Source: Deltaproteobacteria bacterium (lineage in GTDB: Bacteria > Desulfobacterota > Syntrophobacteria > Syntrophobacterales > Syntrophobacteraceae). Taken from it: DNA of 40,995 bases. The stretch covers positions 1-40,995 of the forward strand of contig JAJYTC010000018.1 of the NCBI GenBank assembly GCA_021793275.1, given 5' to 3'. Below, one piece after another: positions 25,923 to 39,706 of this stretch. The translations under genes were made by a program, and so were the position numbers. A model generated the notes under the pieces. That model was not told the origin of the DNA and ran no database searches. It was given only the letters and a program-made list of their open reading frames with translations. Numbering within the stretch: the stretch's first letter is position 1; every line of letters starts with the position of its first letter.

Positions 25923-27674
25923 ATGCGGAAGGGGGTACCCGTGTCCGTAGCATTGTCCATCCTCGATTCGCTGGTCAGTGGCGTGGTAGCCATAGACCGA
26001 GAGGTCAATATAACGGTCTGCAACGAGGCTGCCGCCGGCATGCTCGGTATTACCAAGAAACAGGCGGTCGGCCTGAACCTTTTGACCCTGGTTCCCAATG
26101 CCGGTCTGATAAACGTCCTGCGCACGGGCCAGCCGGAAGTTGGACGTCTGAGGGTCAAAGGAGGCAGGACGATTCTTGCCAGTCGTACCCCCATTCTGCA
26201 CAATGGCGTGATGATCGGCGCCGTTTCGGTTTTTCAGGACATTACCGAAATGGAAAAGATTTCGCGCGAACTCGATTCGACCAAGGTCCTGGTCCATACC
26301 CTCGAAGAAGTGCTGGCGGGCGCGGGCGAATGGATGGTCGTCGTGGATTCATACGGTTTCATAACAATGATGAGCGAGGATTATGCCGCGTTCAACGGCA
26401 TGAGTCTTTCCGAGGCGATAGGAAAGCATGTAACCGAGGTCATCGAGAACACCCGTATGCATATTGTGGCTCAAACCGGCGTGGCGGAAATGGGAGAGAG
26501 CCAGTCGATCCGGGGCACCAACGTGATAGTAAACCGTGTGCCGCTAAAGGACGGCGACCGTATTGTGGGCGCTTACGGACGGGTTGTTTTCAAGGATATG
26601 GAACAGCTTTGGGAACTGGCTGCAAAGCTCAAAGTGCTTGAATCCAAGGTGAGATATTATGAAAAGGAGCTCACCCATCTCAGGGGAGCGCGCTACACCT
26701 TTCGGAGCATTCTCGGGAGCGGACCGGCCATTACCGCCGCCAAGGGGGAGGCTCTCTGGGCGGCTAAGGGCGACTCGACTGTGCTGCTGAGCGGTGAAAC
26801 GGGCACAGGGAAAGAACTTTTCGCCCATTCCGTTCACGCTGCGGGCCGCCGTCGAAGCGGTCCGTTTATCAAGCTCAACTGCGCGGCCGTACCCGCCGAA
26901 CTGATCGAATCCGAGCTGTTCGGTTACGAAGAAGGCGCCTTTACCGGGGCCAAAAAGGGAGGCAAGCCCGGAAAGTTCGAGATGGCAGCGGGAGGAACGC
27001 TCTTTCTGGATGAAATAGGCGATATGCCTGCCTCGATGCAGGCAAAGCTGCTGCGCGTACTCCAGGAACGCGAAGTCGAACGGCTCGGCGGGACATCGGC
27101 AAGGCGGATCGACCTGAGAATTATAGCGGCTACCGCGCAAAAGCTCGAAGAGCTCGTGGGACAGGGAAAATTCCGGGCCGATCTCTATTACAGGATACAT
27201 GTCATTCCCATTCGCATTCCCGCTCTTCGCGAAAGAATCGAGGACATAGAACCGATCTCCACCAATTTTCTCGCCCGGTATGCCGTGGAGACCGGCGAAC
27301 CGGTGCGAAAAATATCCCTTGAGGCGCTCGATGTTTTGCGCTCCTACCACTGGCCGGGAAACGTTCGCGAACTTCAAAACGTCCTGGAGCGCTCGGTGGC
27401 TCTTTCGAGGGGGGATACGATCATGGCGGCCCATCTGCCTCCTCACCTGCTCGCAAAGGCCCCCACCCTCAACAAAGCCTCCGCGCCGGGCTCGCTTGCC
27501 CAGGTGCGTATCGAAGCCGAGCGCAACGCCATCCTGGCCGCGCTCCAGGCAACCGGGGGCAACAAGTCGCGGGCCGCCTCCCTTTTGCAGATCCACCGGG
27601 TAAAGCTGCATGAAAAAATCAGGCGTTACGGGATAAGGAATAGTGAGTTGAGGATAAGGGGGGATCAGTCGTAA
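25923..27674 (+). CDS. PAS-PAS sigma-54-dependent transcriptional activator
   Basis: This 583-residue enhancer-binding protein has two N-terminal PAS domains (about 5-110 and 125-235). A coiled linker follows (LAAKLKVLESKVRYYEKEL). The AAA+ domain (about 260-490) has Walker A GETGTGKE, the GAFTGA loop and FLDEIGD. A Fis-type helix-turn-helix lies near 545-575. There is no receiver, so it likely senses a small molecule or redox state directly. A GTG at 25941 has a better ribosome site (AAGGGGG) than the ATG at 25923 and would remove only 6 residues. The two palindromes and -24/-12 promoter just downstream are its presumed targets, making it the local activator of the hydratase-transporter-CoA-transferase operon. 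Confidence 0.92.
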   Translation: MRKGVPVSVALSILDSLVSGVVAIDREVNITVCNEAAAGMLGITKKQAVGLNLLTLVPNAGLINVLRTGQPEVGRLRVKGGRTILASRTPILHNGVMIGAVSVFQDITEMEKISRELDSTKVLVHTLEEVLAGAGEWMVVVDSYGFITMMSEDYAAFNGMSLSEAIGKHVTEVIENTRMHIVAQTGVAEMGESQSIRGTNVIVNRVPLKDGDRIVGAYGRVVFKDMEQLWELAAKLKVLESKVRYYEKELTHLRGARYTFRSILGSGPAITAAKGEALWAAKGDSTVLLSGETGTGKELFAHSVHAAGRRRSGPFIKLNCAAVPAELIESELFGYEEGAFTGAKKGGKPGKFEMAAGGTLFLDEIGDMPASMQAKLLRVLQEREVERLGGTSARRIDLRIIAATAQKLEELVGQGKFRADLYYRIHVIPIRIPALRERIEDIEPISTNFLARYAVETGEPVRKISLEALDVLRSYHWPGNVRELQNVLERSVALSRGDTIMAAHLPPHLLAKAPTLNKASAPGSLAQVRIEAERNAILAALQATGGNKSRAASLLQIHRVKLHEKIRRYGIRNSELRIRGDQS

Positions 27675-27688
27675 CCGATTGGCTACAG

Positions 27689-27704
27689 GTACCGATTCCG
27701 GTAC
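27689..27704. promoter_or_regulatory. activator-binding palindrome 1 (UAS candidate)
   Basis: The 16-bp inverted repeat GTACCG-ATTC-CGGTAC starts 15 nt after the activator gene. It has the same GTACC..GGTAC outline and 4-nt centre as the site at 27768-27793, whose centre is 84 bp away (about eight helical turns). This is the spacing expected for cooperative enhancer sites of a sigma-54 activator. Confidence 0.7.
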
Positions 27705-27767: not shown

Positions 27768-27793
27768 GGGATGTACCCGAACGGGTACATCCC
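27768..27793. promoter_or_regulatory. activator-binding palindrome 2 (UAS candidate)
   Basis: A perfect inverted repeat with 11-nt arms (GGGATGTACCC and its complement) and a GAAC centre. It lies about 110 bp upstream of the -24/-12 promoter, a normal enhancer distance. No T-run follows, so it is unlikely to be a terminator for the preceding gene. Confidence 0.72.
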
Positions 27794-27891: not shown

Positions 27892-27907
27892 TGGCGCAGA
27901 CGTTGCA
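27892..27907 (+). promoter_or_regulatory. sigma-54 (-24/-12) promoter of the uptake/CoA-transferase operon
   Basis: TGGCGCAGACGTTGCA matches both the TGGC (-24) and TTGCA (-12) elements with correct spacing. It would start a transcript near 27919, about 50 nt upstream of the MaoC-type gene. A sigma-54 activator gene and paired palindromes lie immediately upstream. Confidence 0.82.
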
Positions 27908-27968
27908 CCATGTCGCTCAGACCCGGGGCGCCCGTTTTTATCGGCAGCATCAGCTTTGGAGAGCGTGC

Positions 27969-28373
27969 ATGTACAAAGTCGGAGATTCCGCCGAAATATC
28001 CAAGCTCATCACTGAAGAAGACGTCTACCTCTTTGCCGGAATAACCGGAGACAGGAACCCGTTACACATTTCCAACGATTTCGCCTTGAAGACGAGGTTC
28101 GGCGAGCGGATTGCCCATGGCCTGCTGACCGCCGGCGTTGTCTCGGCCGCGTTGGGAATGAAACTGCCCGGTCCCGGCTCCATCCCTTTGTCGCAGACGC
28201 TCAGGTTCCTGGCGCCGGTCAAGATAGGCGACCAGATCACCGCCCGCGTTCAAATCGAAGAAATAACCGCCGACGGGCTTCGCTTCACGACCCGGTGTTT
28301 CAACCAGAATTCGGAGTTGGTCCTGGACGGGGAGGCGATTGTCGAGCCTCCCGCAAAGAACTCGAGGACCTGA
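27969..28373 (+). CDS. MaoC-like (R)-specific enoyl-CoA hydratase
   Basis: This 134-residue hot-dog-fold protein resembles PhaJ-type hydratases. The catalytic Asp/His pair is visible as D28 and H33 in the motif AGITGDRNPLH, followed by ARFG-like TRFGERIAHGLL. It should add water to a trans-2-enoyl-CoA or remove it from a 3-hydroxyacyl-CoA. The ATG at 27969 has GGAG 7-9 nt upstream; in-frame sequence from 27771 crosses the enhancer and promoter and is not coding. As first gene of the operon, it suggests that the acid imported and activated by the next genes is processed through an enoyl-CoA or hydroxyacyl-CoA. Confidence 0.87.
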   Translation: MYKVGDSAEISKLITEEDVYLFAGITGDRNPLHISNDFALKTRFGERIAHGLLTAGVVSAALGMKLPGPGSIPLSQTLRFLAPVKIGDQITARVQIEEITADGLRFTTRCFNQNSELVLDGEAIVEPPAKNSRT

Positions 28374-28404
28374 TGCGCAAACGGAATCAAGAGGAGGAAG
28401 GCAG

Positions 28405-29607
28405 ATGAGAAAGGGATTTTGGGTGGTTCTTTTGATGCTGGTGTTTGCTTCGACCGCCATGGCGGCCGAACCGATCAAGATCGGGGCAATGTATCCCTTG
28501 TCGGGCAGGGCGGCCGATCTGGGGATCACGTGCAACCAGGGAGCGCAACTGGCGGTAAATCAAATCAACGCGAAGGGGGGAGTACTGGGCAGAAAACTCG
28601 AATTGCTCTCGGCCGACAGCAAGGCCAATACCCAGGAAGCCGTGTCGCTTGCCAACATGTATATTCTGAAAGACAACGTCAATTTTCTTTTCGGTACGGT
28701 GAGTTCGGCAGCAGCCCCGGCGGTTGCGCAGGTGGCCAAAGAAAACAAGACTATCTTCATGGCCACGGTAGCTTCCACCGATACGCTCACCACGACGGAC
28801 TGGAACCGCTATACGTTCCGCGCGGGCACCTGCAATTCCCAGGAGGCCAATTCACTGGCCCTTTATACGCCGAAAAATCTGGTCACGTTTTACAACATCG
28901 GCCCCAACTACGAGTACGGAAGGACCATGTGGTCGCTCTACAAGGCTAAAATCGCCCAACTCAACCCGAAGGCCAAATTTATCGGCGAGCAGTGGCCGAA
29001 GCTTTTCGAACCCGATTACACTCCCTACATCAATGCGATCCTCGCCGCCAAACCGGATGCTGTTTTTTGCAGTCTGTGGGGCGGCGACCTCGTGGCCTTC
29101 ATAAAACAGGCAAAACCTTACGGACTGTTCAAGAAAATAAAATGGATCATCCCCACGGGGGCGGATGTAACTGTCACCCAGGCGCTCGGCAAAAGCATGC
29201 CTACCGGTCTCATCGTCGATCAGCGCTACTATTTCTACTGGCCCAAGACGGCTCGAAACGAAGAATTCGTAAAGGCCTACAGGGCCGCTTACAAGAACTA
29301 TCCCAGCGCATGGGCCGAAGAAGGCTATGACGGCGTCTACTTTCTGGCCGACGCCATGAAGAAGGCAAAATCGACGGATACCGACAAGGTTATCAAGGCG
29401 CTGGAAGGACTCACGATAAACGCCCCGAGAGGAAAGGCGACCATGCGCAAACAGGACCACCAGATGGTGTGCAATTACATGGTGGGAGAGACGACCTTCA
29501 CGAAGGCCTATCCGTTTGCAATTACCGGACATGACCGCGTCTTTCCGGCAAACGAAGTGATTTATCCGCTAAGCGTGTGGGAAAAGGCGCAGGCGGCGAA
29601 AAAGTAG
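28405..29607 (+). CDS. branched-chain amino acid-type ABC transporter substrate-binding protein
   Basis: This 400-residue periplasmic binding protein (LivK/ANF-receptor fold) has a signal peptide with cleavage after ASTAMA, giving a mature start of AEPIKIGAMYPLSG. Binding-fold segments include GRAADLG, QLAVNQINAKGGVLG and VSSAAAPAVAQVAKEN. The length fits the family. The ATG at 28405 has a strong AGGAGGA ribosome site and lies 31 nt after the hydratase gene. In catabolic clusters such proteins often bind organic acids, including aromatic ones, rather than amino acids; the CoA-transferase genes downstream favour an acid substrate. Confidence 0.9.
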   Translation: MRKGFWVVLLMLVFASTAMAAEPIKIGAMYPLSGRAADLGITCNQGAQLAVNQINAKGGVLGRKLELLSADSKANTQEAVSLANMYILKDNVNFLFGTVSSAAAPAVAQVAKENKTIFMATVASTDTLTTTDWNRYTFRAGTCNSQEANSLALYTPKNLVTFYNIGPNYEYGRTMWSLYKAKIAQLNPKAKFIGEQWPKLFEPDYTPYINAILAAKPDAVFCSLWGGDLVAFIKQAKPYGLFKKIKWIIPTGADVTVTQALGKSMPTGLIVDQRYYFYWPKTARNEEFVKAYRAAYKNYPSAWAEEGYDGVYFLADAMKKAKSTDTDKVIKALEGLTINAPRGKATMRKQDHQMVCNYMVGETTFTKAYPFAITGHDRVFPANEVIYPLSVWEKAQAAKK

Positions 29608-29614
29608 GGGAAAG

Positions 29615-29684
29615 GAAGCGAGAAGCGAGGAGCGGGGAGCTAACGGGTTGCTGCTTCCTGCTCCCTGCTTCAAGGGGTTTTTTT
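29615..29684 (+). terminator. intercistronic hairpin with T-run (possible attenuator)
   Basis: Two imperfectly complementary purine- and pyrimidine-rich arms (29615-29640 and 29650-29671) can form a long hairpin, followed by GGGG and seven T residues directly before the permease ATG. It could lower permease expression relative to the abundant binding protein, or protect the upstream mRNA end. Confidence 0.5.
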
Positions 29685-31649
29685 ATGCATCTTTCGTTTT
29701 TGACCATTCAAATTTTGAGTGCGTTGCGCGAGGCGGCCTTTCTATTTTTGATTTCCTCGGGTCTGACCCTGATTTTCGGAGTCCTTAACATTCTCAACTT
29801 CGCCCACGGTTCACTCTACATGCTGGGCGCCTATTTCATCTTCTGGCTCACCATACACTTCGCCGGCCCCACCGCATTCTTTTTTGCGCTCATCGCCGCC
29901 CCCCTGGGCGTGGGCCTGATAGCCATGCTTATCGAGATGGGGCTTCTGAGACGCATTTACGTCCAGGAAGAAATCTACCAACTGCTGCTCACCTATTCCC
30001 TTGTTCTGATACTCGACGATCTGGCAAAGATAGTCTTCGGCGCGGACTATAAATCGATTTCAAAACCCGCGTGCCTCTCGGGGGCGGTCCATTTTCTCGG
30101 CAGCACGGTGCCGGTCTACACTATTTTGGTCGTGACCGCGGCCCCGGTCATTGCGGTCCTCATGTGGCTTCTGCTCTACCGGACCCGGTTCGGCAAGGTG
30201 GTGCGGGCCACTTCCTCGGACCGCGAAATCGCCGACGCGCTCGGAATTAATATGACAAGGATCTTCACGCTCGTTTTCGGCATCGGAGCGGTATTGGGGG
30301 GTTTTGCGGGCGCGTTGGCCGGACCCGTCCGAACGGTTTTTCCGACCGCTGGAGACGAGGTCATAATCCAGTCATTCGTGGTTGTTGTGATCGGCGGGCT
30401 CGGGAGCCTGTGGGGGGCTGCGGTCGGCTCGCTTTTGATCGGCGCGCTCGAGACGGTGGGGATAATCCTTTTTCCCAATTTCGAAATGGCGCTGATCTAT
30501 CTGCTGATGGTGGCCGTTCTCATCGTAAGGCCGTGGGGTCTTTTTGGAAAGCCGATCAAAACAAGATCGCTCTCGGAGAAGAACCCGGGTATGGACGCCA
30601 GGGAGATTTCCCCGGTGCATTACTCGACCCATCCGGCCCTTCGCTATGCGCTGCTCGTCGGACTCCTGCTCCTGCCGCTTTTCGCCGGCCGTTACTACCA
30701 GTATCTTTTAAGCGAGGTTTTCATAGCGGCGCTTATGGCCGTGTCCTTCAATCTTCTCCTGGGCACAACGGGGCTTTTGTCTTTTGGCCAGGCGGCTTTC
30801 TACGGCGTTGGCGCCTACACCGTCGCCCTGTTTTTAACCAAAACGGGGATGGGAACCTTGCCCGCCCTTGCCCTCGGTGTTCTTGCATCTGCAATCGCGG
30901 CGGCAGTGATCGGAATTTTCTGCATCCGTCTCACCGGGGTCCATTTCGCCATGCTAACTCTAGCCTTCGGGCAGCTTCTCTACACCGTGGCCTTCAAGTG
31001 GTACGGTTTTACAGGGGGTGACAACGGCATCCAGGGCATTCCGGCAAAACCGATCTTCCTTGGCGGCCACCCGATAGATATCTGGTCCATAAAGGGAATG
31101 TATTATTTCATCCTGGTGATCGTCTGGGTTTCGGTGGCGCTTTTGCGCCGCGTGCGCTGCTCGCCCTTCGGGGCCACACTGAAAGCGATCCGCGAAAACG
31201 GGCAGCGCGCCGCCTACCTGGGTCTAAACGTGAAAATGCACCAGTTGGCGGCCTTCGTCATAGCGGGCGCATTCACCGGCCTGGCAGGGGGCCTTTATGC
31301 CGTCATGTCCCGGTCGATCACCCCCGACATTATCAACTGGACCATGTCCGCAGAGCCGGTGCTGATAACGATTATAGGCGGCATTTACTCCTTCGCCGGA
31401 CCGGCGGTCGGGGCGGCGGTATTCGTTATTCTAAACGAGTACATCGTAGCATGGACCGAAAACTGGTCGCTCGTGCTCGGTCTGGTGCTCCTGGGCCTCG
31501 TGCTGCTTCTTCCGGGTGGCATCGTGGGCGCGTTCAACGGCCAGGCCAGGGAATTGCTGGTCAAAATCAGGTGGATAAAACATTGGGCTTTCTCGAAGTC
31601 AACGGAATCAAAAAAACCTTTGGAGGACTTAGAGCCCTCCAGGACGTAA
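29685..31649 (+). CDS. fused branched-chain-type ABC permease (LivH-LivM)
   Basis: This 654-residue membrane protein joins both permeases in one chain. The LivH half (about 1-290) has the GLTLIFGVLNILNFAHGSLYML start and an EAA-like loop ADALGINMTRIFTLVFGIGA. The LivM half (about 330-620) has NLLLGTTGLLSFGQAAFYGVGAY and a second EAA-like loop RAAYLGLNVKMHQLAAFVI. A short hydrophilic linker (about 300-330) separates them. The ATG at 29685 follows AAGGGG. The C-terminus extends about 65 nt into the ATPase gene. LivHM fusions are known but less common than separate genes. Confidence 0.9.
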   Translation: MHLSFLTIQILSALREAAFLFLISSGLTLIFGVLNILNFAHGSLYMLGAYFIFWLTIHFAGPTAFFFALIAAPLGVGLIAMLIEMGLLRRIYVQEEIYQLLLTYSLVLILDDLAKIVFGADYKSISKPACLSGAVHFLGSTVPVYTILVVTAAPVIAVLMWLLLYRTRFGKVVRATSSDREIADALGINMTRIFTLVFGIGAVLGGFAGALAGPVRTVFPTAGDEVIIQSFVVVVIGGLGSLWGAAVGSLLIGALETVGIILFPNFEMALIYLLMVAVLIVRPWGLFGKPIKTRSLSEKNPGMDAREISPVHYSTHPALRYALLVGLLLLPLFAGRYYQYLLSEVFIAALMAVSFNLLLGTTGLLSFGQAAFYGVGAYTVALFLTKTGMGTLPALALGVLASAIAAAVIGIFCIRLTGVHFAMLTLAFGQLLYTVAFKWYGFTGGDNGIQGIPAKPIFLGGHPIDIWSIKGMYYFILVIVWVSVALLRRVRCSPFGATLKAIRENGQRAAYLGLNVKMHQLAAFVIAGAFTGLAGGLYAVMSRSITPDIINWTMSAEPVLITIIGGIYSFAGPAVGAAVFVILNEYIVAWTENWSLVLGLVLLGLVLLLPGGIVGAFNGQARELLVKIRWIKHWAFSKSTESKKPLEDLEPSRT

Positions 31650-32338
31650 GTTTTTCGGTGGCCAAAGGCGAGATCCGGGCGATCATCGGGCCCAACGGCG
31701 CAGGAAAGTCAACGCTCTTTAACGTGATGACCGGCCTGCTACCCCCCGATTGCGGCCAGGTGATCTTTAACGGGGCCAGGATTTCCGGCCTTCCGCCCCA
31801 CCGCATCATACGCAGGGGGATCGGCAGGTCTTTTCAGATCACCAACATCTTTCCGCGCATGTCGGTCTTCGAAAACGTGCAGGTGGCGCTTTTCGCCATG
31901 CACCGGAAAAACCGGGATTCCTTTTCGGCCGCGCGCAAGTTCGGGGGAATCGAAGAGGAAACCCTGTTCATCCTCGACGAGGTAGGCCTTGCCGACAAGA
32001 CGAATTCACCGGCGTCTGTTCTTTCCCACGGGGACCAAAAGAGGCTTGAGATCGCCATATCGCTTGCATCGCGGCCGATGCTTCTCATGCTTGACGAACC
32101 GACGGCCGGGATGTCCCGCTTCGAAAGCCGATCAACCGTGGAACTGCTAAAGAAAATCGCCGCAGCCCAAGGGCTGACCCTGATCTTCACCGAGCACGAC
32201 ATGGATATCGTTTTCGGCATTTCGCACAAGATCACCGTGCTGCAGCAGGGCACGGTCATAGCCGACGGAACGCCCGAAGAGATAAGGAACAACCCCGAGG
32301 TAAAACGCGCCTACCTTGGCGAGGAAATATTGGATTGA
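31583..32338 (+). CDS. livG: branched-chain-type ABC ATPase (LivG)
   Basis: This ATPase of about 251 residues has Walker A GPNGAGKST, a signature LSHGDQKRLEIA (the Gly-Gly of LSGG is replaced by His-Gly, common in LivG), Walker B LLMLDEP and switch TEHDM. No ATG fits the N-terminus: TTG at 31583 with AGGTGG upstream, or GTG at 31571, are the likely starts, both inside the end of the permease gene. The C-terminal PEVKRAYLGEE is a LivG hallmark. Confidence 0.88.
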   Translation: MGFLEVNGIKKTFGGLRALQDVSFSVAKGEIRAIIGPNGAGKSTLFNVMTGLLPPDCGQVIFNGARISGLPPHRIIRRGIGRSFQITNIFPRMSVFENVQVALFAMHRKNRDSFSAARKFGGIEEETLFILDEVGLADKTNSPASVLSHGDQKRLEIAISLASRPMLLMLDEPTAGMSRFESRSTVELLKKIAAAQGLTLIFTEHDMDIVFGISHKITVLQQGTVIADGTPEEIRNNPEVKRAYLGEEILD

Positions 32339-33051
32339 GCGTCATGGCCATGCTTGAACTGAAATCCGTAAATACTTTCTACGGGCGCAGCCACATACTC
32401 TTCGACGTATCGCTCTCGGTCGAAAAGGGCGAGGTGGTGAGCCTTATCGGCAGAAACGGGGCGGGCAAGAGCACCACCTTCCGGTCGATTATCGGCCTGA
32501 CCGCGCCGTTTTCGGGCGAAGTGACCTTCAAGGGCTCGCCCATAAAGGGGCTTAGACCTCATCAGATTTGCCGCAGGGGAGTGGGCTTTGTTCCGGAGGA
32601 CAGGCGCTGTTTTCCGGATCTCACGGTGCGGGAGAATCTCGAAGTGGTGGCAAGGAGGCAAAAAGAAACACCCTCGCCCTGGACGATAGAAAAGGTCTAC
32701 TCGATTTTTCCCCGTCTAAGGGAACGAGAAAAGAACCTTGGCTCCCAACTTTCGGGAGGCGAGCAGCAAATGCTGACGATCGGTCGCACCCTCATGACGA
32801 ACCCCGAGCTTCTTTTGCTCGACGAACCATCCGAAGGGCTTGCGCCGCTGGTCGTAAAGATGCTTGCGGAGATGATTATCGAGATCCGAAACGAGGGGGT
32901 CACGGTGCTATTGGCGGAACAAAACATCCATTTTTGCGCGAGGGTCTCGGACAGGGGCTACGTCATCGACAAAGGCGCTCTCCGGTACGGCGGGAAAATG
33001 TCCGACCTCATTTCGAACGAAGAAATAAAGGAAAAGTACCTGGCGGTTTAA
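32335..33051 (+). CDS. livF: branched-chain-type ABC ATPase (LivF)
   Basis: This ATPase of about 238 residues has Walker A GRNGAGKST, signature LSGGEQQM, Walker B LLLLDEP with the LivF-typical SEGLAP, and an AEQN switch region in place of the classical His loop. A TTG start at 32335 overlaps the livG stop by 4 nt and has GAGGA 10 nt upstream; ATG codons at 32344 and 32350 are alternatives. With LivG it forms the ATPase pair for the fused permease. Confidence 0.92.
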   Translation: MSVMAMLELKSVNTFYGRSHILFDVSLSVEKGEVVSLIGRNGAGKSTTFRSIIGLTAPFSGEVTFKGSPIKGLRPHQICRRGVGFVPEDRRCFPDLTVRENLEVVARRQKETPSPWTIEKVYSIFPRLREREKNLGSQLSGGEQQMLTIGRTLMTNPELLLLDEPSEGLAPLVVKMLAEMIIEIRNEGVTVLLAEQNIHFCARVSDRGYVIDKGALRYGGKMSDLISNEEIKEKYLAV

Positions 33052-33065
33052 AAATGGTGGGGACA

Positions 33066-34388
33066 ATGGAGAATCAGAACTATTTCGATTGGACCGAGGG
33101 TCTTTTTTGCAAATCGGACATATTCGGCAAACCCGAAGCGCTCAAAGGCGTTCGGGTGCTCGAGTTGTGCACTCGCGTTTTCGGGCCGATAACGGCCGAC
33201 CTTCTCGGGGATTTCGGGGCCGAGGTGATAAAAATAGAGCTTCCCGGAGTCGGAGACCTGATGCGCTATGTCGCCCCGCGCGGCTTTTTCTGGCAAAACA
33301 TGTCTCCTGCGTTCGCGCACATGAACCACAACAAGTACCATGTCGGCATAGACATTCGTAAACCCGAAGGCGGCGAGTTGCTAAGACGGCTGGTGCGAAG
33401 GTCGGACATCCTGGTCGAAAATTTTCGCCCCGGCACCATGGACAAATGGGGGGTGGGATACCGGGAGCTGAAGGAAGTCAACCCGGCCTTGATTTACCAG
33501 GCAAACAGCGGCTTTGGTCAATGGAGCAGCCAAAGGGACAGGCCCTCCTACGACGCTACATCCCAGGCCATGAGCGGCTTTTCGGCGACCACGGGGTTTG
33601 CGGGAAGAGCACCCCTCAAAACCGGGGTCTGGATAGGGGACTGCACGGGGGCGCTCTTTGCGGTTTTGGGCATCCTCAGCGCGCTCTATTACAGGAGAAA
33701 GACCGGAAAGGGACAGATCATCGACGTCTCACAGGGCGAAAGCCTGGTCCGGTGCCTCGACTGGACGTGGCTCTACCTGACGAGCTGCGGCAAGGAACGG
33801 GGCCTGCATGGAAACCGGGACATCGCCGTTTCTCCTTCGGCGGTTTTTCGCTGTAAGGACGGATTTATCGCCGTGGCCGCCATAAACGACCTCCAGTTCA
33901 AGGGGCTTTGCGCCGCGATAAACAGGCCCGAAATGGCGAGGGAGATGCGCTTTGCGACGTTCGAATCAAGGGTCGGCGAAGAAAATGCGAAAGCCCTGCA
34001 TGGTATTCTCTCCTCCTGGGCGCTCTCCAATACCATGGACGAAATCGAAAAGCTCGCCGAAGTCCACGGATTCGCCGCGCATCGGGTCAGCACCTCCCAA
34101 GATCACTACCATGACGAACACCTCAAAAGACGCGGGACTGTCTGGAATTTCGAAGACCCGCTCTATGGAGACGCCGTCGAGTACGGACCCGGACCGAAAC
34201 TTTCGGCCAGTCCGGGGCGCATGCGCTGGATGGCCAAGCCGGTAGGATTTCACAACGATTATGTATTTACGGACCTGCTCGGCCTTAGCGCGGAGAAGAT
34301 ACGGGAACTGGAAGAAAAAAAAGTCATAGGCCGATGGGACGACCGGGTCGGCGCCAAGCCCCCCGACGGCTGGAACGGCGGGTGTTGA
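33066..34388 (+). CDS. class III CoA-transferase, catalytic subunit (CaiB/BaiF family)
   Basis: This 440-residue family III CoA-transferase has GVRVLELCTRVFGP near 28-41, FGAEVIKIE at 50-58 and the SDILVENFRPG motif around 113-123. The catalytic Asp is D192 in the IGDCTG motif, aligning with Asp169 of formyl-CoA transferase. The enzyme moves CoA from a donor thioester to a free acid. ATG 33066 is preferred for its GGTGGGG site; ATG 33054 is also possible. It lies 14 nt after livF and 31 nt before a paralog that lacks the Asp, suggesting a heterodimer like benzylsuccinate CoA-transferase BbsEF. Confidence 0.88.
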   Translation: MENQNYFDWTEGLFCKSDIFGKPEALKGVRVLELCTRVFGPITADLLGDFGAEVIKIELPGVGDLMRYVAPRGFFWQNMSPAFAHMNHNKYHVGIDIRKPEGGELLRRLVRRSDILVENFRPGTMDKWGVGYRELKEVNPALIYQANSGFGQWSSQRDRPSYDATSQAMSGFSATTGFAGRAPLKTGVWIGDCTGALFAVLGILSALYYRRKTGKGQIIDVSQGESLVRCLDWTWLYLTSCGKERGLHGNRDIAVSPSAVFRCKDGFIAVAAINDLQFKGLCAAINRPEMAREMRFATFESRVGEENAKALHGILSSWALSNTMDEIEKLAEVHGFAAHRVSTSQDHYHDEHLKRRGTVWNFEDPLYGDAVEYGPGPKLSASPGRMRWMAKPVGFHNDYVFTDLLGLSAEKIRELEEKKVIGRWDDRVGAKPPDGWNGGC

Positions 34389-34419
34389 TTATCAGCTTAT
34401 GGGCAAGCAAGAGGAAATT

Positions 34420-35748
34420 ATGAGCGATTCCACGAAAACGACATGGTTCGAATGGGCGCGGGAAAACACCGACCCCAGCCGTGCCGCAGAAAAACCCGAA
34501 GCTCTGAGCAATCTACTGGTTCTGGATATCAGCCGGGAGAGCATGAGCGGCCCTGTGTGCTCTTCCATCCTTGCGGAGATGGGCGCAGAAGTAATACGGA
34601 TCGAACCGCCCGGGGGAGACCCGGCGAGGCGCTTCAGCCCGTTTGGCGTTCTTCACCGCGGCACGGGGCTGGGTTATCTGGTCGAGGGCAGAAACAAGAG
34701 CCACATCACCCTTAACCTCGAAGACCCCCAAGGCCGGCAGATGTTCAAGTCCCTTGCCGCACACGCCGACGTCGTCATCGAAACCTTCCGACCGGGTCTT
34801 CTGGACGACTGGGGCATCGGGTACAGGCAGCTCGAAAAGATGAACGAGCGCCTCATATACGCGGGCCTTTCGACCTACGGCCATTTCGGCCCCCTTGCCT
34901 CCTGCGGGCGGGCGGGCTCCGAGATCTCCAACCAGGCATATTCGGGCCTGGCACAGATAAACGGCGAAGCCGAAGGCGACGAGCAGACCGAATACGGTGT
35001 CCCGACAAAGGTCGGCGCCTGGTACGGCTGGTACGCAGAAGGGCTTTTCGGCGCATACGGCATACTGGTTGCCCTCAACTTTCGCGAAACATCCGGAAAG
35101 GGCCAGTTCGTGGACGTTTCCGGCGCCGAATGCATAATGAAATTCATCGATTACAACATCAACTGGTATCACATGGAAGGCAGGATCAAGGAGCGCATGG
35201 GCAACTACGATCAGGCCGTCTTCCCTTATACCTACATCAGGTGCAGCGACGGATACACCTTTATTGCCGCCTATAACGACGAGGCTTTTGCGACGCTCAT
35301 GGAAATAATCGGCGCCCCCGACCTCGCGGCGACCCCGCGGTTTTCATCCTTTATGAACAGGACTTCGATAGAAAATGAGCAGGCGCTGCAGCAGATCCTG
35401 GAAGAGTGGAGCGCGCAGTACACGGTCGATGAGGTGATCGCCCGCGTGCAGGAGGTCATATCGCGCAAAGAGGGCCGAGCGGCCGCGGTAGTCACCGGGA
35501 AGGTGCTAAGGCCCTCGGAGACCATCGAGCAGCAGGACTGGTGGGAGCGCGGCGTATTCAGGAAAATCGAGGACCCTTGCTACGGGGAACTGACTTTGCA
35601 GGGGCCGGTCTGGAACATGAGCGAGACCCCGCCCCGCCTCAAATGGGTCTGCCGTCCCGTCGGCGCCGACAACCGGTTCATTTACCTCAAATATCTCGGC
35701 CTGGGGCGCAGCGAATTGGAAAGGCTCGGCGAGCGGGGAGTTATTTAG
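34420..35748 (+). CDS. class III CoA-transferase-like subunit without catalytic Asp
   Basis: This 442-residue CaiB/BaiF-family protein is a diverged paralog of the preceding gene product. It keeps MGAEVIRIEPPGGD at 54-67, ADVVIETFRPG at 116-126 and the SGKGQFVDVS segment. At the place of the catalytic Asp it has W204 (motif WYGWYAEG); the flanking residues align without gaps. It therefore probably cannot form the CoA-enzyme intermediate alone and serves as the partner subunit of a heterodimer. The ATG at 34420 has a GAGGAA site; a start at 34399 would add 7 residues. It is the last gene of the operon. Confidence 0.88.
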   Translation: MSDSTKTTWFEWARENTDPSRAAEKPEALSNLLVLDISRESMSGPVCSSILAEMGAEVIRIEPPGGDPARRFSPFGVLHRGTGLGYLVEGRNKSHITLNLEDPQGRQMFKSLAAHADVVIETFRPGLLDDWGIGYRQLEKMNERLIYAGLSTYGHFGPLASCGRAGSEISNQAYSGLAQINGEAEGDEQTEYGVPTKVGAWYGWYAEGLFGAYGILVALNFRETSGKGQFVDVSGAECIMKFIDYNINWYHMEGRIKERMGNYDQAVFPYTYIRCSDGYTFIAAYNDEAFATLMEIIGAPDLAATPRFSSFMNRTSIENEQALQQILEEWSAQYTVDEVIARVQEVISRKEGRAAAVVTGKVLRPSETIEQQDWWERGVFRKIEDPCYGELTLQGPVWNMSETPPRLKWVCRPVGADNRFIYLKYLGLGRSELERLGERGVI

Positions 35749-35896: not shown

Positions 35897-35969
35897 TCCC
35901 CGGTAGCTCAACCGGCAGAGCGGGTGGCTGTTAACCACTAGGTTGGCGGTTCGAGTCCGTCCCGGGGAG
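35897..35969 (+). tRNA. tRNA-Asn (anticodon GTT)
   Basis: A 73-nt cloverleaf: acceptor TCCCCGG pairs with CCGGGGA, the D-arm is GCTC..GAGC, the anticodon stem GGTGG/CCACT encloses loop CTGTTAA with GTT at 35930-35932, the variable loop is AGGTT, and the T-arm has the TTCGAGT loop. CCA is not encoded. The last 27 nt are repeated at 36304-36331, typical of a tRNA used as an integration site. Confidence 0.95.
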
Positions 35970-35970
35970 C
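35943..35970 (+). repeat. direct repeat, copy 1 (3' end of tRNA-Asn)
   Basis: These 28 nt, the T-arm and 3' acceptor half of the tRNA, recur identically at 36304-36331. Such tRNA 3'-end duplications are the usual mark of site-specific insertion. Confidence 0.85.
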
Positions 35971-35978
35971 TTTCATAT

Positions 35979-36014
35979 AAAGGGCTGGGCCGCAAGGTCC
36001 GGCCCTTTTCTTTT
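35979..36014 (+). terminator. intrinsic terminator of tRNA-Asn
   Basis: A 13-bp stem with two G-T pairs (outer arms AAAGGGC / GCCCTTT) and a GCAA tetraloop is followed by TCTTTT. It ends 12 nt before the GIY-YIG gene. Confidence 0.85.
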
Positions 36015-36025
36015 CAGAGACTATC

Positions 36026-36286
36026 ATGCCATACTGGGTCTACGTACTGGAAAGCCAAACCTCTGGCCGTCTTTACTGCGGGCAAACCTCGGACCTGGAC
36101 AGACGCATTGCCCAGCACAATGACCCGGGGCACACATTCACTCGGACGACCAAAGTGTTTGATGGACCATGGCGCTTAAAATGGAGCCATCAGTGCACGT
36201 GCCGTACCGATGCTATCAAATTGGAACGTAGAATCAAGAAAAGGGGGGCCGCACGCTTCCTGGCAGACCAAGCGGGCGGCTGTTAA
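36026..36286 (+). CDS. small GIY-YIG endonuclease-domain protein
   Basis: This 86-residue protein is a single GIY-YIG nuclease domain of the UPF0213/YhbQ-like size. The motif appears as VYVLES..RLYCGQT at residues 5-21. Catalytic-type residues R27 and N32 (DRRIAQHN) and the metal-binding E67 (LERRIKKRG) are present. It lies between the tRNA-Asn gene and a partial tRNA-Asn copy. Its last codons, including the TAA stop, are made from the anticodon-arm-like sequence of that copy (36272-36286). No good ribosome site is seen. This arrangement suggests a small mobile or homing-type cassette; a DNA-repair role is the alternative. Confidence 0.8.
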   Translation: MPYWVYVLESQTSGRLYCGQTSDLDRRIAQHNDPGHTFTRTTKVFDGPWRLKWSHQCTCRTDAIKLERRIKKRGAARFLADQAGGC

Positions 36287-36331
36287 TCCCGCGAAGCGCG
36301 GGATTGGCGGTTCGAGTCCGTCCCGGGGAGC
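36272..36331 (+). repeat. partial, altered tRNA-Asn copy (insertion junction)
   Basis: Positions 36272-36286 match the anticodon arm of the tRNA at 14 of 15 positions, and 36304-36331 match its 3' end exactly. Between them, the 8 nt of the true tRNA are replaced by 17 nt that help form a perfect 8-bp hairpin (ATCCCGCG / CGCGGGAT). The acceptor 5' half and D-arm are missing, so it cannot be a functional tRNA. Confidence 0.85.
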
Positions 36332-36341
36332 CCAGAAAATC

Positions 36342-36377
36342 GAGAGGCTAGCCAAGTTGGCTGGCCTCTCTTTTTTT
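36342..36377 (+). terminator. strong intrinsic terminator
   Basis: Outer stem GAGAGGC / GCCTCTC and inner AGCCAA / TTGGCT are followed by seven T residues. It lies just past the partial tRNA copy and would stop transcription coming from the GIY-YIG gene. Confidence 0.85.
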
Positions 36378-36380
36378 GCG

Positions 36381-36399
36381 GTGTCAACATAGTGTCAAC
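36381..36399 (+). repeat. two GTGTCAAC direct repeats
   Basis: GTGTCAAC occurs at 36381-36388 and 36392-36399, 11 bp apart, directly after the terminator. Such short repeats beside a tRNA junction may be arm-type recombinase binding sites; this is a guess. Confidence 0.4.
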
Positions 36400-36436
36400 T
36401 CTATGCCAGTTTCACCTAATGAAAAGAGGGTCGCAT

Positions 36437-36791
36437 TCACGCGCGCCACCATTTCTTCAATATGTTCGCGGTCGGCAATACTACCCCAGCTAAGCTCGCG
36501 GTGCATGAAATGGCGGACATGTGGATTAGGCGGGAGCGGTCGGCAAACGCCATCTTTCCAAAAGGATTACCCTGCGGCAAAATCGGAAGCGGCTTGGGAA
36601 GCGAGAGTTCCACAAAAGTTGTGGGTCGCACCGACCCTGTCCTTTGATCTTCTTTTCCAGTAATAGGAACTTTTGATGTTGATTTTGTTTGATCGGCAGT
36701 ACTCAACCTGGTTCAGACCGCTTACTGCGCACCGCGCTATATGATCTTCCCAGAACTGCTGCCTGCCGGATTTGCTCAGATTCTTCCGCAT
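36437..36791 (-). pseudogene. frameshifted IS66-type transposase accessory gene fragment
   Basis: The first frame (from ATG 36791) encodes FWEDHIARCAVSGLNQVEYC and SSYYWKRR, the N-terminal helix-turn-helix pattern of IS66-family OrfA proteins. The match then continues in another frame with TTFVELSLP (ORF ending at 36437), showing a frameshift near 36650. No OrfB or large transposase is nearby, so this is a decayed insertion-sequence remnant. Confidence 0.55.
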
Positions 36792-36871
36792 GCTTGGCCA
36801 CCCGTCGTGTTTTCAGGAGATCGTGGCAGAACTATTATTCACGTACAAGGTGGGGTTTCCCGACCGCTTAC

Positions 36872-37287
36872 CTATTTCCGGATGGAAAGCAGCCGCAGCC
36901 CATCAATTCGTTCGAAGTGGTTGACGTTGTTGGTAAGAAGGGTCAGGTTGCGGCAAAGGCAGGTAGCGGCGATCAGGAGATCAAAATCTCCGATCATTCT
37001 TCCGGTTAACTGCCGGAATTTCACAATTTCCCGCGCTCCCGACCGAAGCATTGGCAAATATCCTGGTCCACTTCCATTACAGGGAATCGGGAGAGAAACA
37101 TGTCGAGGATGGTTTCATTTTTCTCCGGATCTCGGGAGTAAAATACTCCTTCGTAGAGTTCGGCTAAAGACATGACACTGAGGGCCACTCCTTTAGGCTC
37201 AAGTTCCAAAAGTTTCTCCGTGGTGGCCTGTATGTTGTTCAGATGATCGATAACCCAGTCCGTATCCACCAGATACCTGAGCTTCAT
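36872..37287 (-). pseudogene. VapC-type PIN-domain toxin, frameshifted
   Basis: The first part (37287 down to 37021) encodes the PIN N-terminal half, with LVDTDWVIDHL carrying the first acidic residue and SLAELYEGV the second. It stops at FGRERGKL. The C-terminal half lies in another frame (to 36872) as GDFDLLIAATCL and LTLLTNNVNHFERI, with the remaining acidic residues. Together they form a full PIN domain, so a single-base change near 37020-37030 broke the gene, or the read has an error there. The start overlaps the antitoxin stop by 4 nt. Confidence 0.8.
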
Positions 37288-37532
37288 AGTTTGACCTCCG
37301 GTCGAGTTGAAAGCAAACGATCTTCATAAATCCGCCGCTTGAGTTCTTCGCAATCGATAGTGTCTTTCCAGTCTCCGGCAGTGGCCATGAGGATATCCTT
37401 AGCCGTTACGGTTTCAGATTTGTTCCGACGGGGCCGTTTGGTCTTGGCCTTTTTTCTCAGCCGTTCGGCCAGGGACTCCAAGAGTTTAACGTCCTCGTCA
37501 TCCAAACCGTGGATTTCAATAAAATGTGCCAT
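37284..37532 (-). CDS. VapB-like antitoxin
   Basis: This 82-residue protein is charged and mostly helical, with a basic linker (LRKKAKTKRPRRNKS) and a C-terminal part (WKDTIDCEELKRRIYEDRLL) that could wrap the toxin. Its stop overlaps the PIN-domain start (ATGA), the normal toxin-antitoxin layout. The N-terminal part is short of clear AbrB or ribbon-helix-helix motifs, so the family is named from context. Confidence 0.7.
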   Translation of the reverse strand: MAHFIEIHGLDDEDVKLLESLAERLRKKAKTKRPRRNKSETVTAKDILMATAGDWKDTIDCEELKRRIYEDRLLSTRPEVKL

Positions 37533-37806
37533 CGGCCTCTCCTTTTCCGTGGTAAATTAAATAGAGAACTTGTCCGTAGTGGGCGTTCTAAGCCGCGATA
37601 CGGTTATTCTATGCCTTTTCAGACTGTTGTCAAACCACCTGAGTTGCAATTTAAATACATCCCTGGCCGGTGTTTATTCCGCCTCGTGAGGGTATTGCCG
37701 TCGAAGCATGAGGCCTTTTCGAAAGCCGGCCAGTGTCCGGCAGTTTGACTGCGAAAGCAAATTCCCTCATCTTTTTCGAGGAACAGCTATACCTTATCCT
37801 CAAAGC

Positions 37807-38763
37807 ATGGAAGAGGATAATCTAAAAATGGTAGAGGACTGTTTCCGGGAAGCCCGGATTACCGACGAACTGCGGCCGGGCTCCATCAAAAAATACGGGA
37901 GTTCGATCAAGAACTTCCTGGAACTGCTCGGGCCGAAAAATCTGACAGACTTAAACAACCGCGACTTTGGCCACTACATTCTCGAAATGAAAAGCCGGGG
38001 GGCCAGTAATGTCCGCATCGCCAATGTCATCGCCGCCATGAAGTGGCTGATTGCCCGCTTGTGGGAGAAGGGCGCCACATTTCCCTCTCTTGATCTCCTT
38101 GCCGTGAGGAAACCAAAAGCTGTAAAAAAAGAGACAAATTATCTCACCGAGCGCGAGGTAGCCCAATTCCTGGACACGGTCCAGGACGATACTTCGAGGC
38201 GGTCAACGGTTAAGGGGGGCCGCTTTATGGCGTTCACCATGCTTCTTTTGCAAACCGGCGCCCGGATCGGGGAAGCCCTGTCCATCAATCGGGCCAATAT
38301 CGACCGGGAGAACAAGGAAATCCAAATAGTCGGGAAAGGCGGCAAGCCCCGGACCCTGTTTTTGCGAGACGAGACCCTCCACTGGATCGATAGATATCTG
38401 GCCGTGAGGGAAGACGACGAACCAGCCCTTTTTGCCTGCCAGGACGGGACCGCCCGCTGGAAACAGACGGATGCTGGAAGGAGTTTTAAAAGATATAAGG
38501 ACAGGTCGGGAATCAAGAAGCATTTTGTCATTCACACGTTTCGGCACACTTTTGCGACGATGTATCTCATGAAAGGGGCCGGCATCAACGTGGTCCAGAC
38601 GGCCCTCGGCCACTCCGATCCGGTGACAACCCTCAAATACTATGCTGCCGCCGTGGAAAAAGCCAAAGTAAGGGAAACGATCAACGACCGGCATTTCGAC
38701 TTCATCCCAAGCTCCCTTCTAGCTTCAAGGTCACTACCGAATAACTGCCATCTGTCCCAATAA
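37807..38763 (+). CDS. tyrosine recombinase/integrase (Xer-like), plus strand
   Basis: This 318-residue recombinase has a SAM-like N-terminal DNA-binding domain (about 10-95) and a catalytic domain. Catalytic residues are all visible: R153 in TGARIGE, a Lys at K177 or K180 in the beta-hairpin (VGKGGK), H243 and R246 (HTFR), H269 in LGHS, and the nucleophile Y278 or Y279 in LKYY. The ATG at 37807 fits the N-terminus; longer in-frame forms from 37708 run through non-conserved sequence. A possible driver of the tRNA-linked accessory region, though it lies about 1.5 kb from the tRNA copy. Confidence 0.88.
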   Translation: MEEDNLKMVEDCFREARITDELRPGSIKKYGSSIKNFLELLGPKNLTDLNNRDFGHYILEMKSRGASNVRIANVIAAMKWLIARLWEKGATFPSLDLLAVRKPKAVKKETNYLTEREVAQFLDTVQDDTSRRSTVKGGRFMAFTMLLLQTGARIGEALSINRANIDRENKEIQIVGKGGKPRTLFLRDETLHWIDRYLAVREDDEPALFACQDGTARWKQTDAGRSFKRYKDRSGIKKHFVIHTFRHTFATMYLMKGAGINVVQTALGHSDPVTTLKYYAAAVEKAKVRETINDRHFDFIPSSLLASRSLPNNCHLSQ

Positions 38764-38792
38764 CGACGGCAATATCGCTGACCTGTGGTACA

Positions 38793-38817
38793 GTGCAGAG
38801 TGCAGAGTGCAGAGTGC
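38793..38817 (+). repeat. 7-bp tandem repeat (GTGCAGA), 3.5 copies
   Basis: Three and a half copies of GTGCAGA lie between the recombinase and the unknown gene. They are too short and spacer-free to be CRISPR. Similar short tandem repeats occur as replication-slippage tracts in many genomes. Confidence 0.8.
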
Positions 38818-38857
38818 CCGTAGCGCGCCGTCCTGAATACTGGCAGGGAGAAAACCG

Positions 38858-39682
38858 ATGAAGCAGATGGCCGATGAAGAAAAAATACGGGCGTATTATA
38901 CGCATATGGAACCTAGGAAACAGTATCAGCTTAAACCGAAAGCAATGAAGATAGTCACGACAAATATAGACAGGCTGGTCGAAAGCCAGCGCGAGCTTAT
39001 TATCGGCTCGTATGACCAGTTTTTGCGCTTCGGCGGACCCTGCGTGTATTTTCATCTCCAATGCCTGGCGGAAGGCAAGAGGGATTTCCTCTCTCCGAGG
39101 CATATTGAAATGCTGTATGCCACCCTTACCGCCTGGGGGATGCATCGCATGGGCGATTCGGAAAGAACAAAGACCAAATTATCTGAATGGGATCGCTTTT
39201 CTGAATCGTTCTACAGGAACAAAGAGGTCCTGGAAAAAATCCGAGAGAACAGCATGTCGGAAATGAGTTCGGACGAATATGCCCGCTCGCTCCAGGATTT
39301 AAAAGACCTTTATTTGCATCTCGATCTGACTGAAGCTGACTCGACGCTCGTGGTCAACTCGAAAGCGTTGTTCCACTTGTTTCCCGAATACATTCCGCCG
39401 ATTGACAGGAAGTACACCCTCCGTTTTCTCCTGAAAAGCCCGGACCAGTGGATGACACCGGATAAAAAGTTCAGGCCGATCATGCTTCCTCAAGGCAAAG
39501 CCAACCAATTTGCCTGGTTTGAAGAGACCTGCAACGTATTCAAGGACATGCTGGACCGCCTCGATACCGGTCATATCGCCGAAGAACGGCGGAGAAACCA
39601 GGTCACGCCCCCGAAGATCATCGACAATGCAATCGTCCATTACGTGAGAATAATATCCGGCAAAATCGAAGGCACGGACTAA
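38858..39682 (+). CDS. conserved protein of unknown function (PPIDRxYT motif)
   Basis: This 274-residue protein is soluble with no signal peptide or membrane segment. Its most conserved-looking part is VVNSKALFHLFPEYIPPIDR followed by KYTLRFLL near residues 166-195, a pattern I have seen in widespread uncharacterised proteins of accessory regions. The N-terminal part is helical (LVESQRELIIGSYDQFLRF). No nuclease, ATPase or DNA-binding motif is apparent. It lies between two convergent tyrosine recombinases, so it is probably cargo of that element. I do not assign a function. Confidence 0.7.
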   Translation: MKQMADEEKIRAYYTHMEPRKQYQLKPKAMKIVTTNIDRLVESQRELIIGSYDQFLRFGGPCVYFHLQCLAEGKRDFLSPRHIEMLYATLTAWGMHRMGDSERTKTKLSEWDRFSESFYRNKEVLEKIRENSMSEMSSDEYARSLQDLKDLYLHLDLTEADSTLVVNSKALFHLFPEYIPPIDRKYTLRFLLKSPDQWMTPDKKFRPIMLPQGKANQFAWFEETCNVFKDMLDRLDTGHIAEERRRNQVTPPKIIDNAIVHYVRIISGKIEGTD

Positions 39683-39706
39683 AATCGACGGGTCATCTTT
39701 CCCTCT

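Follow-up and report, generated by a model that had tools for sequence, protein, structure and literature searches.

A putative sigma-54-controlled operon for import and CoA activation of an acid, possibly (R)-3-hydroxybutyrate, in Desulfobacterota

In this study, we analyzed a stretch of 40,995 nt (hereafter the window) of contig JAJYTC010000018.1 from the 4.65-Mb genome of a Deltaproteobacteria bacterium of the Syntrophobacteraceae (GCA_021793275.1), focusing on a group of genes, all on the + strand and ending at position 35748, which encode a MaoC protein, a periplasmic binding protein, a fused permease, two ATPases and two CoA_transf_3 proteins (Table 1). We consider it highly probable that these genes constitute an operon importing an acid and activating it with coenzyme A (CoA) under the control of a local switch. 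That the imported substrate is a 3-hydroxy acid is moderately favored by the evidence, and the more specific view, in which the operon is a transferable unit for the catabolism of a short-chain hydroxy acid, (R)-3-hydroxybutyrate being the likeliest, is put forward as a proposal with roughly balanced chances. An earlier, sequence-only reading of this DNA had spoken of an unknown organic acid; a carboxylic acid is still indicated, although it is no longer wholly unknown, as the genomic setting speaks for a 3-hydroxy acid.

All parts named in that reading, i.e., the MaoC-type hydratase, the branched-chain-type ATP-binding cassette (ABC) transporter and two class III CoA-transferase genes, were found where it had placed them; missing from its list were the activator gene, two dyads and the loss of the catalytic aspartate in the second transferase. 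The LIV/HAAT-type importer set is complete within the operon (a Peripla_BP_6 protein, two BPD_transp_2 domains and two ATPases, as recognized by Pfam), and an AAA+ activator gene with an operator-like site adjoins it (Pfam and dyad scan). The gap between the last ATPase and transferase A is 2 nt (33051/33054), if the first start is used.

Distant Desulfobacterota share this gene order, which runs from the regulator through MaoC, the binding protein, the fused permease and two ATPases to the two class III CoA-transferases. In the class search, orthologs of the binding protein, which share 64-73% identity with it outside the genus and 89% in the congener G004, turned up in two of 55 genomes (G000 and G004), where 12 further genomes gave only matches of at most 39%; in the phylum sample they were present in 10 of 395 genomes, counting that of the host. 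The class of G368 contributed 12 of 26 genomes, that of G329 one of 12, and that of G360 one of 29. These searches overlap and sum to 16 genomes, of which 15 neighborhoods were read (G438 was left out). A second phylum search with a binding-protein alignment yielded no additional close ortholog, its genomes being apparently much the same as those of the first sample. MaoC is located directly upstream of the binding protein gene in 13 of the 15 neighborhoods, and transferase A comes after the ABC genes at 10 of the 12 loci that could be assessed (in G433 after an inserted dehydrogenase-family gene); it is absent at the locus in G004 and G329, while in L090, L092 and L100 the contig ends first. 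Loci of family f33 of sufficient length keep the order of the window, with the exceptions of the extra gene in G433 and a non-adjacent regulator in G228. The regulator, MaoC and ABC proteins of the congener (L068) are 81-89% identical to those of the window. The patchy distribution within the phylum fits horizontal transfer, as judged from these searches. In L100 (5236-6774), a long-chain acyl-CoA ligase-like gene lies on the opposite strand between the regulator and MaoC. Flanking open reading frames (ORFs) were mostly compared with our own query set rather than with family libraries, so further partner genes may be overlooked.

Both CoA-transferase proteins are full-length members of CoA_transf_3 (373.0 bits for A and 319.5 bits for B, at a Pfam cut-off of 23.3), and neither of them reaches a curated NCBIfam equivalog cut-off. 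At the class III catalytic position, which we take to be Asp169 of FRC, aspartate is present in all 40 readable A rows and in none of the 41 B rows, 40 of which have tryptophan and one alanine (L102, 3995-5308, the sole B subunit of this kind). These counts refer to distinct rows of at least 40% identity from the loci collected for this comparison; one further A row was cut before the site, and the rows below 40% that were kept out, four A-like (L002, L003, L004 and L047) and two B-like (L002 and L047), all carry Asp. The Trp column of B aligns with the Asp of the solved homologs 10uh, 9br6, 4ed9 and 4hl6. The trees of A and B contain matching major groups, and in the B tree all transporter-linked pairs together with the transporter-free Desulfacinum-group pairs share the branch of the window (99/99 support, 16 rows). 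Since the Asp/Trp split is conserved and the two trees match, A and B are best read as one heteromeric enzyme with A as the catalytic and B as an inactive partner. Of the earlier claim of two class III CoA-transferase genes the family assignment holds, and the two genes now look like one heteromeric enzyme, B being devoid of the catalytic Asp. The pairs of family f33 are 50-53% identical to that of the window and the f33 transporters about 70%, therefore the pair either evolved faster or was exchanged.

Other pairs were noticed as well. A second A/B pair of the host genome (L001, 14077-16782, contig C147), 44-45% identical, shows the same Asp/Trp split and is kept in several genomes of the family; the idea that it duplicates this operon was rejected in view of this identity and because no ABC partners occur in the 19.5 kb read. 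G036 encodes a more distant pair (49/47%) in L046 (1205-9012); behind it lies another LIV-type ABC set, with a binding protein only 24% identical to that of the window, so the link between such a pair and a LIV-type transporter may have arisen more than once. A literature search that included PMC10818641 and PMC9196870 yielded no description of the operon or of an inactive subunit in a class III transferase; most subscription papers lay outside its coverage.

The two-gene architecture also allows the pair to be viewed as a BbsEF-like succinyl-CoA transferase serving dicarboxylate or alkyl-/benzylsuccinate-type beta-oxidation. The solved matches include chains of benzylsuccinate transferase, and a two-gene class III transferase accompanied by a thiolase and a short-chain dehydrogenase/reductase (SDR), as in G360, resembles the benzylsuccinate beta-oxidation set given in PMC10818641. 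Formyl-CoA, SUGCT-type and YfdE-type enzymes, however, score above the benzylsuccinate chains for both subunits among solved structures, and no acyl-CoA dehydrogenase, which saturated acids would need, was recognized by the operon in the loci read, where not every flanking ORF was family-searched. We therefore regard such an entry as quite unlikely.

What the transporter carries can be approached through the pocket of its binding protein. We take Ser79 and Thr102 of LivJ to be the carboxylate clamp and Glu226 to be the ammonium ligand. The clamp hydroxyls are kept in 12 of 12 orthologs (Ser at both positions), while the Glu226 position is occupied by Thr in 11 of them and by Ala in one, which makes a free acid without an amino group likely; the protein is probably not for amino acids, as far as can be judged from its residues. 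The pocket positions are identical or nearly so in all 12 orthologs, including that of the G329 type, and this implies one ligand. The predicted structure (AlphaFold, mean predicted local distance difference test (pLDDT) score of 92.3) is nearest to 3i45 (Z 50.6), followed by several organic-acid, amino-acid and urea binders, a range of fold matches that does not single out one ligand.

An ordinary branched-chain amino-acid transporter, from whose promoter unrelated genes are also transcribed by read-through, would be in line with the LivH/M/G/F family names matched by all ABC subunits. It is very unlikely in our opinion, given the replacement of Glu226, the conservation of the gene set order across families and the fact that no ABC protein reaches a curated LIV cut-off. 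The sequence-only reading had named branched-chain amino-acid specificity of the binding protein, together with separate transcription of the transferase genes, as what would speak against it. The pocket residues point the other way, and so do the 2-nt gap and the position of transferase A kept in 10 of 12 loci, from which we infer co-transcription of the transferases with the ABC genes. More distant binding proteins (36-38% identical) are encoded in L070, L103, L106, L107 and L109, where a homolog of aldehyde:ferredoxin oxidoreductase is present by the ABC genes; in L070 an iron alcohol dehydrogenase is found there as well.

The promoter of the operon could not be recognized by its pattern alone. 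The scan with the -24/-12 consensus, two mismatches being allowed, gave 6 matches in the window versus 13 expected by chance, and a sigma-70 scan was uninformative (5 found versus 4.5 expected). It is conservation that makes the sigma-54 promoter convincing: an 18-bp block over the -24/-12 element is identical in the congener, where the surrounding intergenic DNA has diverged, and a -24/-12 site precedes the operon in all 15 related loci (best scores of 13.0 to 14.5 of 15). When each locus was shuffled 300 times with its dinucleotides preserved, no more than 2.7% of the shuffles attained the score observed there. The single sigma-54 promoter which the sequence-only reading had placed ahead of the operon is thereby confirmed.

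The best NCBIfam match of the activator is PrdR, under the cut-off of that family. A dyad of the form TGTACC-N6-GGTACA is matched at 11 or more of 12 positions in 12 of the 15 loci (shuffle-controlled), weaker forms being found in L089 (10 of 12 positions), L088 (9) and L094 (7); the regulators of the last two are only 45-51% identical. An exact copy of the dyad is present at a single site of the host genome (27772-27789 of the window) and at a single site in the congener, at the same locus; in G228 and G351 it is likewise confined to this locus, G439 has one copy elsewhere, and seven of the 12 genomes in which a wider regulon was sought contain no exact copy. As the pattern was derived from these same loci, the count shows privacy and not an independent discovery. 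The dyad is likely to be the operator of the adjacent activator.

The suggestion of a 3-hydroxy acid comes from the enzymes found behind orthologous transporters. In G329 (L094), an SDR gene and a CoA ligase gene take the place of the transferase pair. The SDR scores 330.7 bits against the NCBIfam 3-hydroxybutyrate dehydrogenase cut-off of 307.05, each of its 11 best solved matches bears the name of a hydroxybutyrate dehydrogenase, and it holds Gln, His, Lys and Gln, presumably the substrate-binding residues of that family. The start of the ligase gene overlaps the stop of the SDR gene, and the enzyme is similar to acetate and ACSM-type medium-chain ligases, without attaining curated cut-offs. 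In G360 (L073/L088; JAPLJC010000065.1), a thiolase and a FabG-like SDR follow the pair, and in G433 a gene of the beta-hydroxyacid dehydrogenase family, below family cut-offs, is located between the ATPase and the pair. A PhaJ-like hydratase is encoded in the window and in 12 other loci; that of the window matches (R)-specific hydratases and carries the sequence GDxNPxH...HG, which we take to be the motif of the (R)-specific PhaJ type, and it is accordingly predicted to be such an enzyme. The enzymes of G329 and G360 together with this hydratase indicate a short (R)-3-hydroxy acid, which the variant gene sets would convert to acetoacetyl-CoA or crotonyl-CoA. A 3-hydroxybutyrate dehydrogenase scoring over the cut-off is also encoded in the host genome, beside an acetoacetate decarboxylase, on a contig other than that of the window (L110, 3661-7688, contig C213); a patatin-fused pyridine-nucleotide oxidoreductase is encoded there too.

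Several observations weigh against this assignment. The link between the transporter and 3-hydroxybutyrate dehydrogenase was found in one of 15 neighborhoods only (G329), in a genome listed with 6% contamination, and the dehydrogenase-type and thiolase-type contexts are represented by one genome each. The poly(3-hydroxybutyrate)-depolymerase family PF10503 was not found in any of 18 genomes, eleven of which have the transporter (the same search gave matches in two of 14 control genomes); hence, the acid would have to be supplied by others. In the remaining nine genomes of the genus covered by the class search the binding protein has no close ortholog, and the congener has MaoC and the ABC genes with no transferase pair at the locus. 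Complexes with p-hydroxybenzoate and vanillate, as well as urea binders, are among the nearest solved binding proteins, and the pairs of the Desulfacinum/Desulfosoma group (67-69% identical) are accompanied by GlcD/GlcF-like, GntR and LrgB genes, with no ABC genes, in all five loci (L036-L040).

The last two of these points lead to other acids handled by the same machinery. GlcD-type enzymes work on 2-hydroxy acids, and the orthologous pair stands downstream of the GlcD-, GlcF-, GntR- and LrgB-like genes in 5/5 loci of the Desulfacinum/Desulfosoma group, which suggests a 2-hydroxy acid in that group. The pair could then be a CoA-transferase for 2-hydroxy acids (of the lactate, glycolate or 2-hydroxybutyrate type) or for short hydroxy acids in general, with a corresponding ligand of the transporter. 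The GlcD-like protein is, however, under the curated glcD cut-off, and the transporter-linked variants hold 3-hydroxybutyrate dehydrogenase, thiolase/FabG-like SDR and PhaJ-like hydratase genes, i.e., enzymes of 3-hydroxy intermediates, so we regard this alternative as unlikely. In L036, DctP- and DctM-type tripartite ATP-independent periplasmic (TRAP) transporter genes adjoin the transferase pair.

An aromatic or phenylpropanoid acid that is taken up, activated with CoA and hydrated in its side chain by the MaoC protein could be suspected on account of 4ey3, 4eyg and 4evq (titled p-hydroxybenzoate, vanillate and 4-hydroxybenzoate complexes) among the closest folds, and of the tryptophans that replace LivJ Tyr202 and Phe276 in each of the 12 orthologs; in addition, there is a class III transferase that acts on benzylsuccinate (9fn0). 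No aromatic-pathway gene was recognized in the 15 neighborhoods, in which most flanking ORFs lay outside the family-library search, and the dehydrogenase substituted in G329 is of the 3-hydroxybutyrate type, with the substrate residues of the family kept. An aromatic substrate is thus unlikely.

The congener shows that the module is separable, since regulator, MaoC and ABC genes are present there without transferases at the locus; the pair may have been lost there, or the locus rearranged. In this congener, the operon stops after the last ATPase, and the next gene, on the opposite strand, encodes a PAS-rich histidine kinase (L068, 13409-15442). A recent foreign insertion of the pair in the window was also considered and found no support, as its G+C content and third-position G+C match those of the remaining operon and the arrangement is found in distant genomes too.

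For the favored substrate, a short (R)-3-hydroxy acid, the following course of events may be proposed. The PAS-AAA+-Fis activator would be switched on by the acid or by a signal derived from it and, bound to the dyads pinpointed by conservation, would open the sigma-54 promoter at 27892. The free acid, the presumed ligand, would be imported by an ABC system that is LIV-type by family and fold. Next, the putative heteromeric class III CoA-transferase would put CoA on the acid from a donor that may be, e.g., succinyl-CoA or acetyl-CoA, and the PhaJ-like hydratase would interconvert (R)-3-hydroxyacyl-CoA and enoyl-CoA (crotonyl-CoA), by which the (R) substrate could enter the (S)-specific beta-oxidation encoded elsewhere. 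The scheme of import, CoA transfer and hydration or dehydration contained in the sequence-only reading is well supported by these data, with one putative heteromer in place of its two transferases.

A bolder interpretation, which we offer only tentatively, sees here a mobile Desulfobacterota module, in which a dedicated LIV-type ABC importer of (R)-3-hydroxybutyrate or related polyhydroxyalkanoate (PHA) monomers is combined with a single-target sigma-54 switch, a heteromeric class III CoA-transferase with an obligatory, conserved Asp-to-Trp pseudoenzyme subunit and three interchangeable routes behind one transporter. The routes would be transferase and hydratase; transferase, dehydrogenase and thiolase; and dehydrogenase and ligase.

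Table 1. Features of the operon and its control region (coordinates refer to the window)
Feature	Coordinates	Strand	Basis and remarks
PAS - AAA+ (Sigma54_activat) - Fis-type HTH activator, likely local regulator	25923..27674	+	Pfam; directly 5' of MaoC in relatives
Operator-like dyad GTACC-N6-GGTAC, first copy	27689..27704	.	Counterpart kept in congener locus L068
Operator-like dyad TGTACC-N6-GGTACA, second copy	27772..27789	.	Genome-wide exact search; shuffle control
Sigma-54 -24/-12 element TGGCGCAGACGTTGC	27892..27906	+	Consensus scan; footprint in congener; 15/15 loci
Predicted MaoC/PhaJ-type (R)-specific enoyl-CoA hydratase, 134 aa	27969..28373	+	Pfam MaoC_dehydratas; solved matches 5cpg, 3ir3, 1iq6
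LIV/HAAT-type periplasmic binding protein, Peripla_BP_6	28405..29607	+	Pfam; pocket residues; AlphaFold mean pLDDT 92.3
Fused LivH-LivM-type permease, 654 aa	29685..31649	+	Two BPD_transp_2 stretches; single ORF in relatives too
LivG-type ATPase, GTG start	31571..32338	+	Pfam/NCBIfam; 79-nt overlap with permease end, same in L068
LivF-type ATPase	32344..33051	+	Pfam/NCBIfam
Class III CoA-transferase, putative catalytic subunit A (Asp kept, ..WIGDCTGAL..)	33054..34388 (alternative start 33066)	+	Pfam
Class III CoA-transferase homolog, putative non-catalytic subunit B (Asp to Trp, ..WYGWYAEGL..)	34420..35748 (alternative start 34399)	+	Pfam

Directly downstream of the operon there is a tRNA-Asn gene (35897-35970), and a 26-bp copy of its 3' end was found at 36306, with a small GIY-YIG-like ORF (36026-36286, named by eye) in between. 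Further downstream, two phage-type integrases are encoded (37708-38763 and 39707-40639, Pfam). The region 35897-40639 looks like an element integrated at tRNA-Asn.

Anaerobes commonly contain LIV-type ABC systems and class III CoA-transferases, which default annotation mostly labels as amino-acid or carnitine genes. The operon offers a tight, testable case, with a single binding protein, two-subunit transferase, hydratase and operator. 3-Hydroxybutyrate is a building block of bioplastics; if it is the ligand, relatives of sulfate reducers without a PF10503 depolymerase could live on monomers that bacterial storage plastic releases. As for the Asp-to-Trp partner, its recurrence would make it suited for asking why some class III transferases retain an inactive half.

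Every part of the system belongs to a known family, and what appears new, on the sequence comparisons made here, is the way in which they are combined, together with an operator private to the locus and an inactive subunit that is conserved. The importer shares its subunit set, folds and carboxylate-clamp positions with E. coli LivJ/K-HMGF (LIV/HAAT importers), from which it differs in the fusion of LivH and LivM, the lost ammonium Glu, the sigma-54 activator and the linked CoA-activation genes. With the formyl-CoA:oxalate, SUGCT, YfdE and succinyl-CoA:mesaconate enzymes, the transferase has in common the CoA_transf_3 family and the catalytic Asp in A, but here it is a two-gene pair, with Trp (40/41) or Ala (1/41) at the Asp site of B. 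BbsEF (9fn0) of the bbs operon is likewise composed of two different class III subunits forming one enzyme, and a thiolase and an SDR gene follow the pair in G360; the present pair is, however, closer in sequence to other class III enzymes, the substrate would be imported, and neither a hydrocarbon-activation nor an acyl-CoA dehydrogenase gene was recognized nearby, among flanking ORFs of which not every one was family-searched. The hydratase resembles PhaJ in being a single 134-aa MaoC protein with 5cpg and 1iq6 among its best solved matches, although it is encoded in an uptake operon and not in a PHA-synthesis locus. Finally, the G329 variant, with 3-hydroxybutyrate dehydrogenase and a CoA ligase behind the orthologous transporter, is similar to D-3-hydroxybutyrate utilization, whereas the acid of the window would be CoA-activated first and dehydrogenated later.

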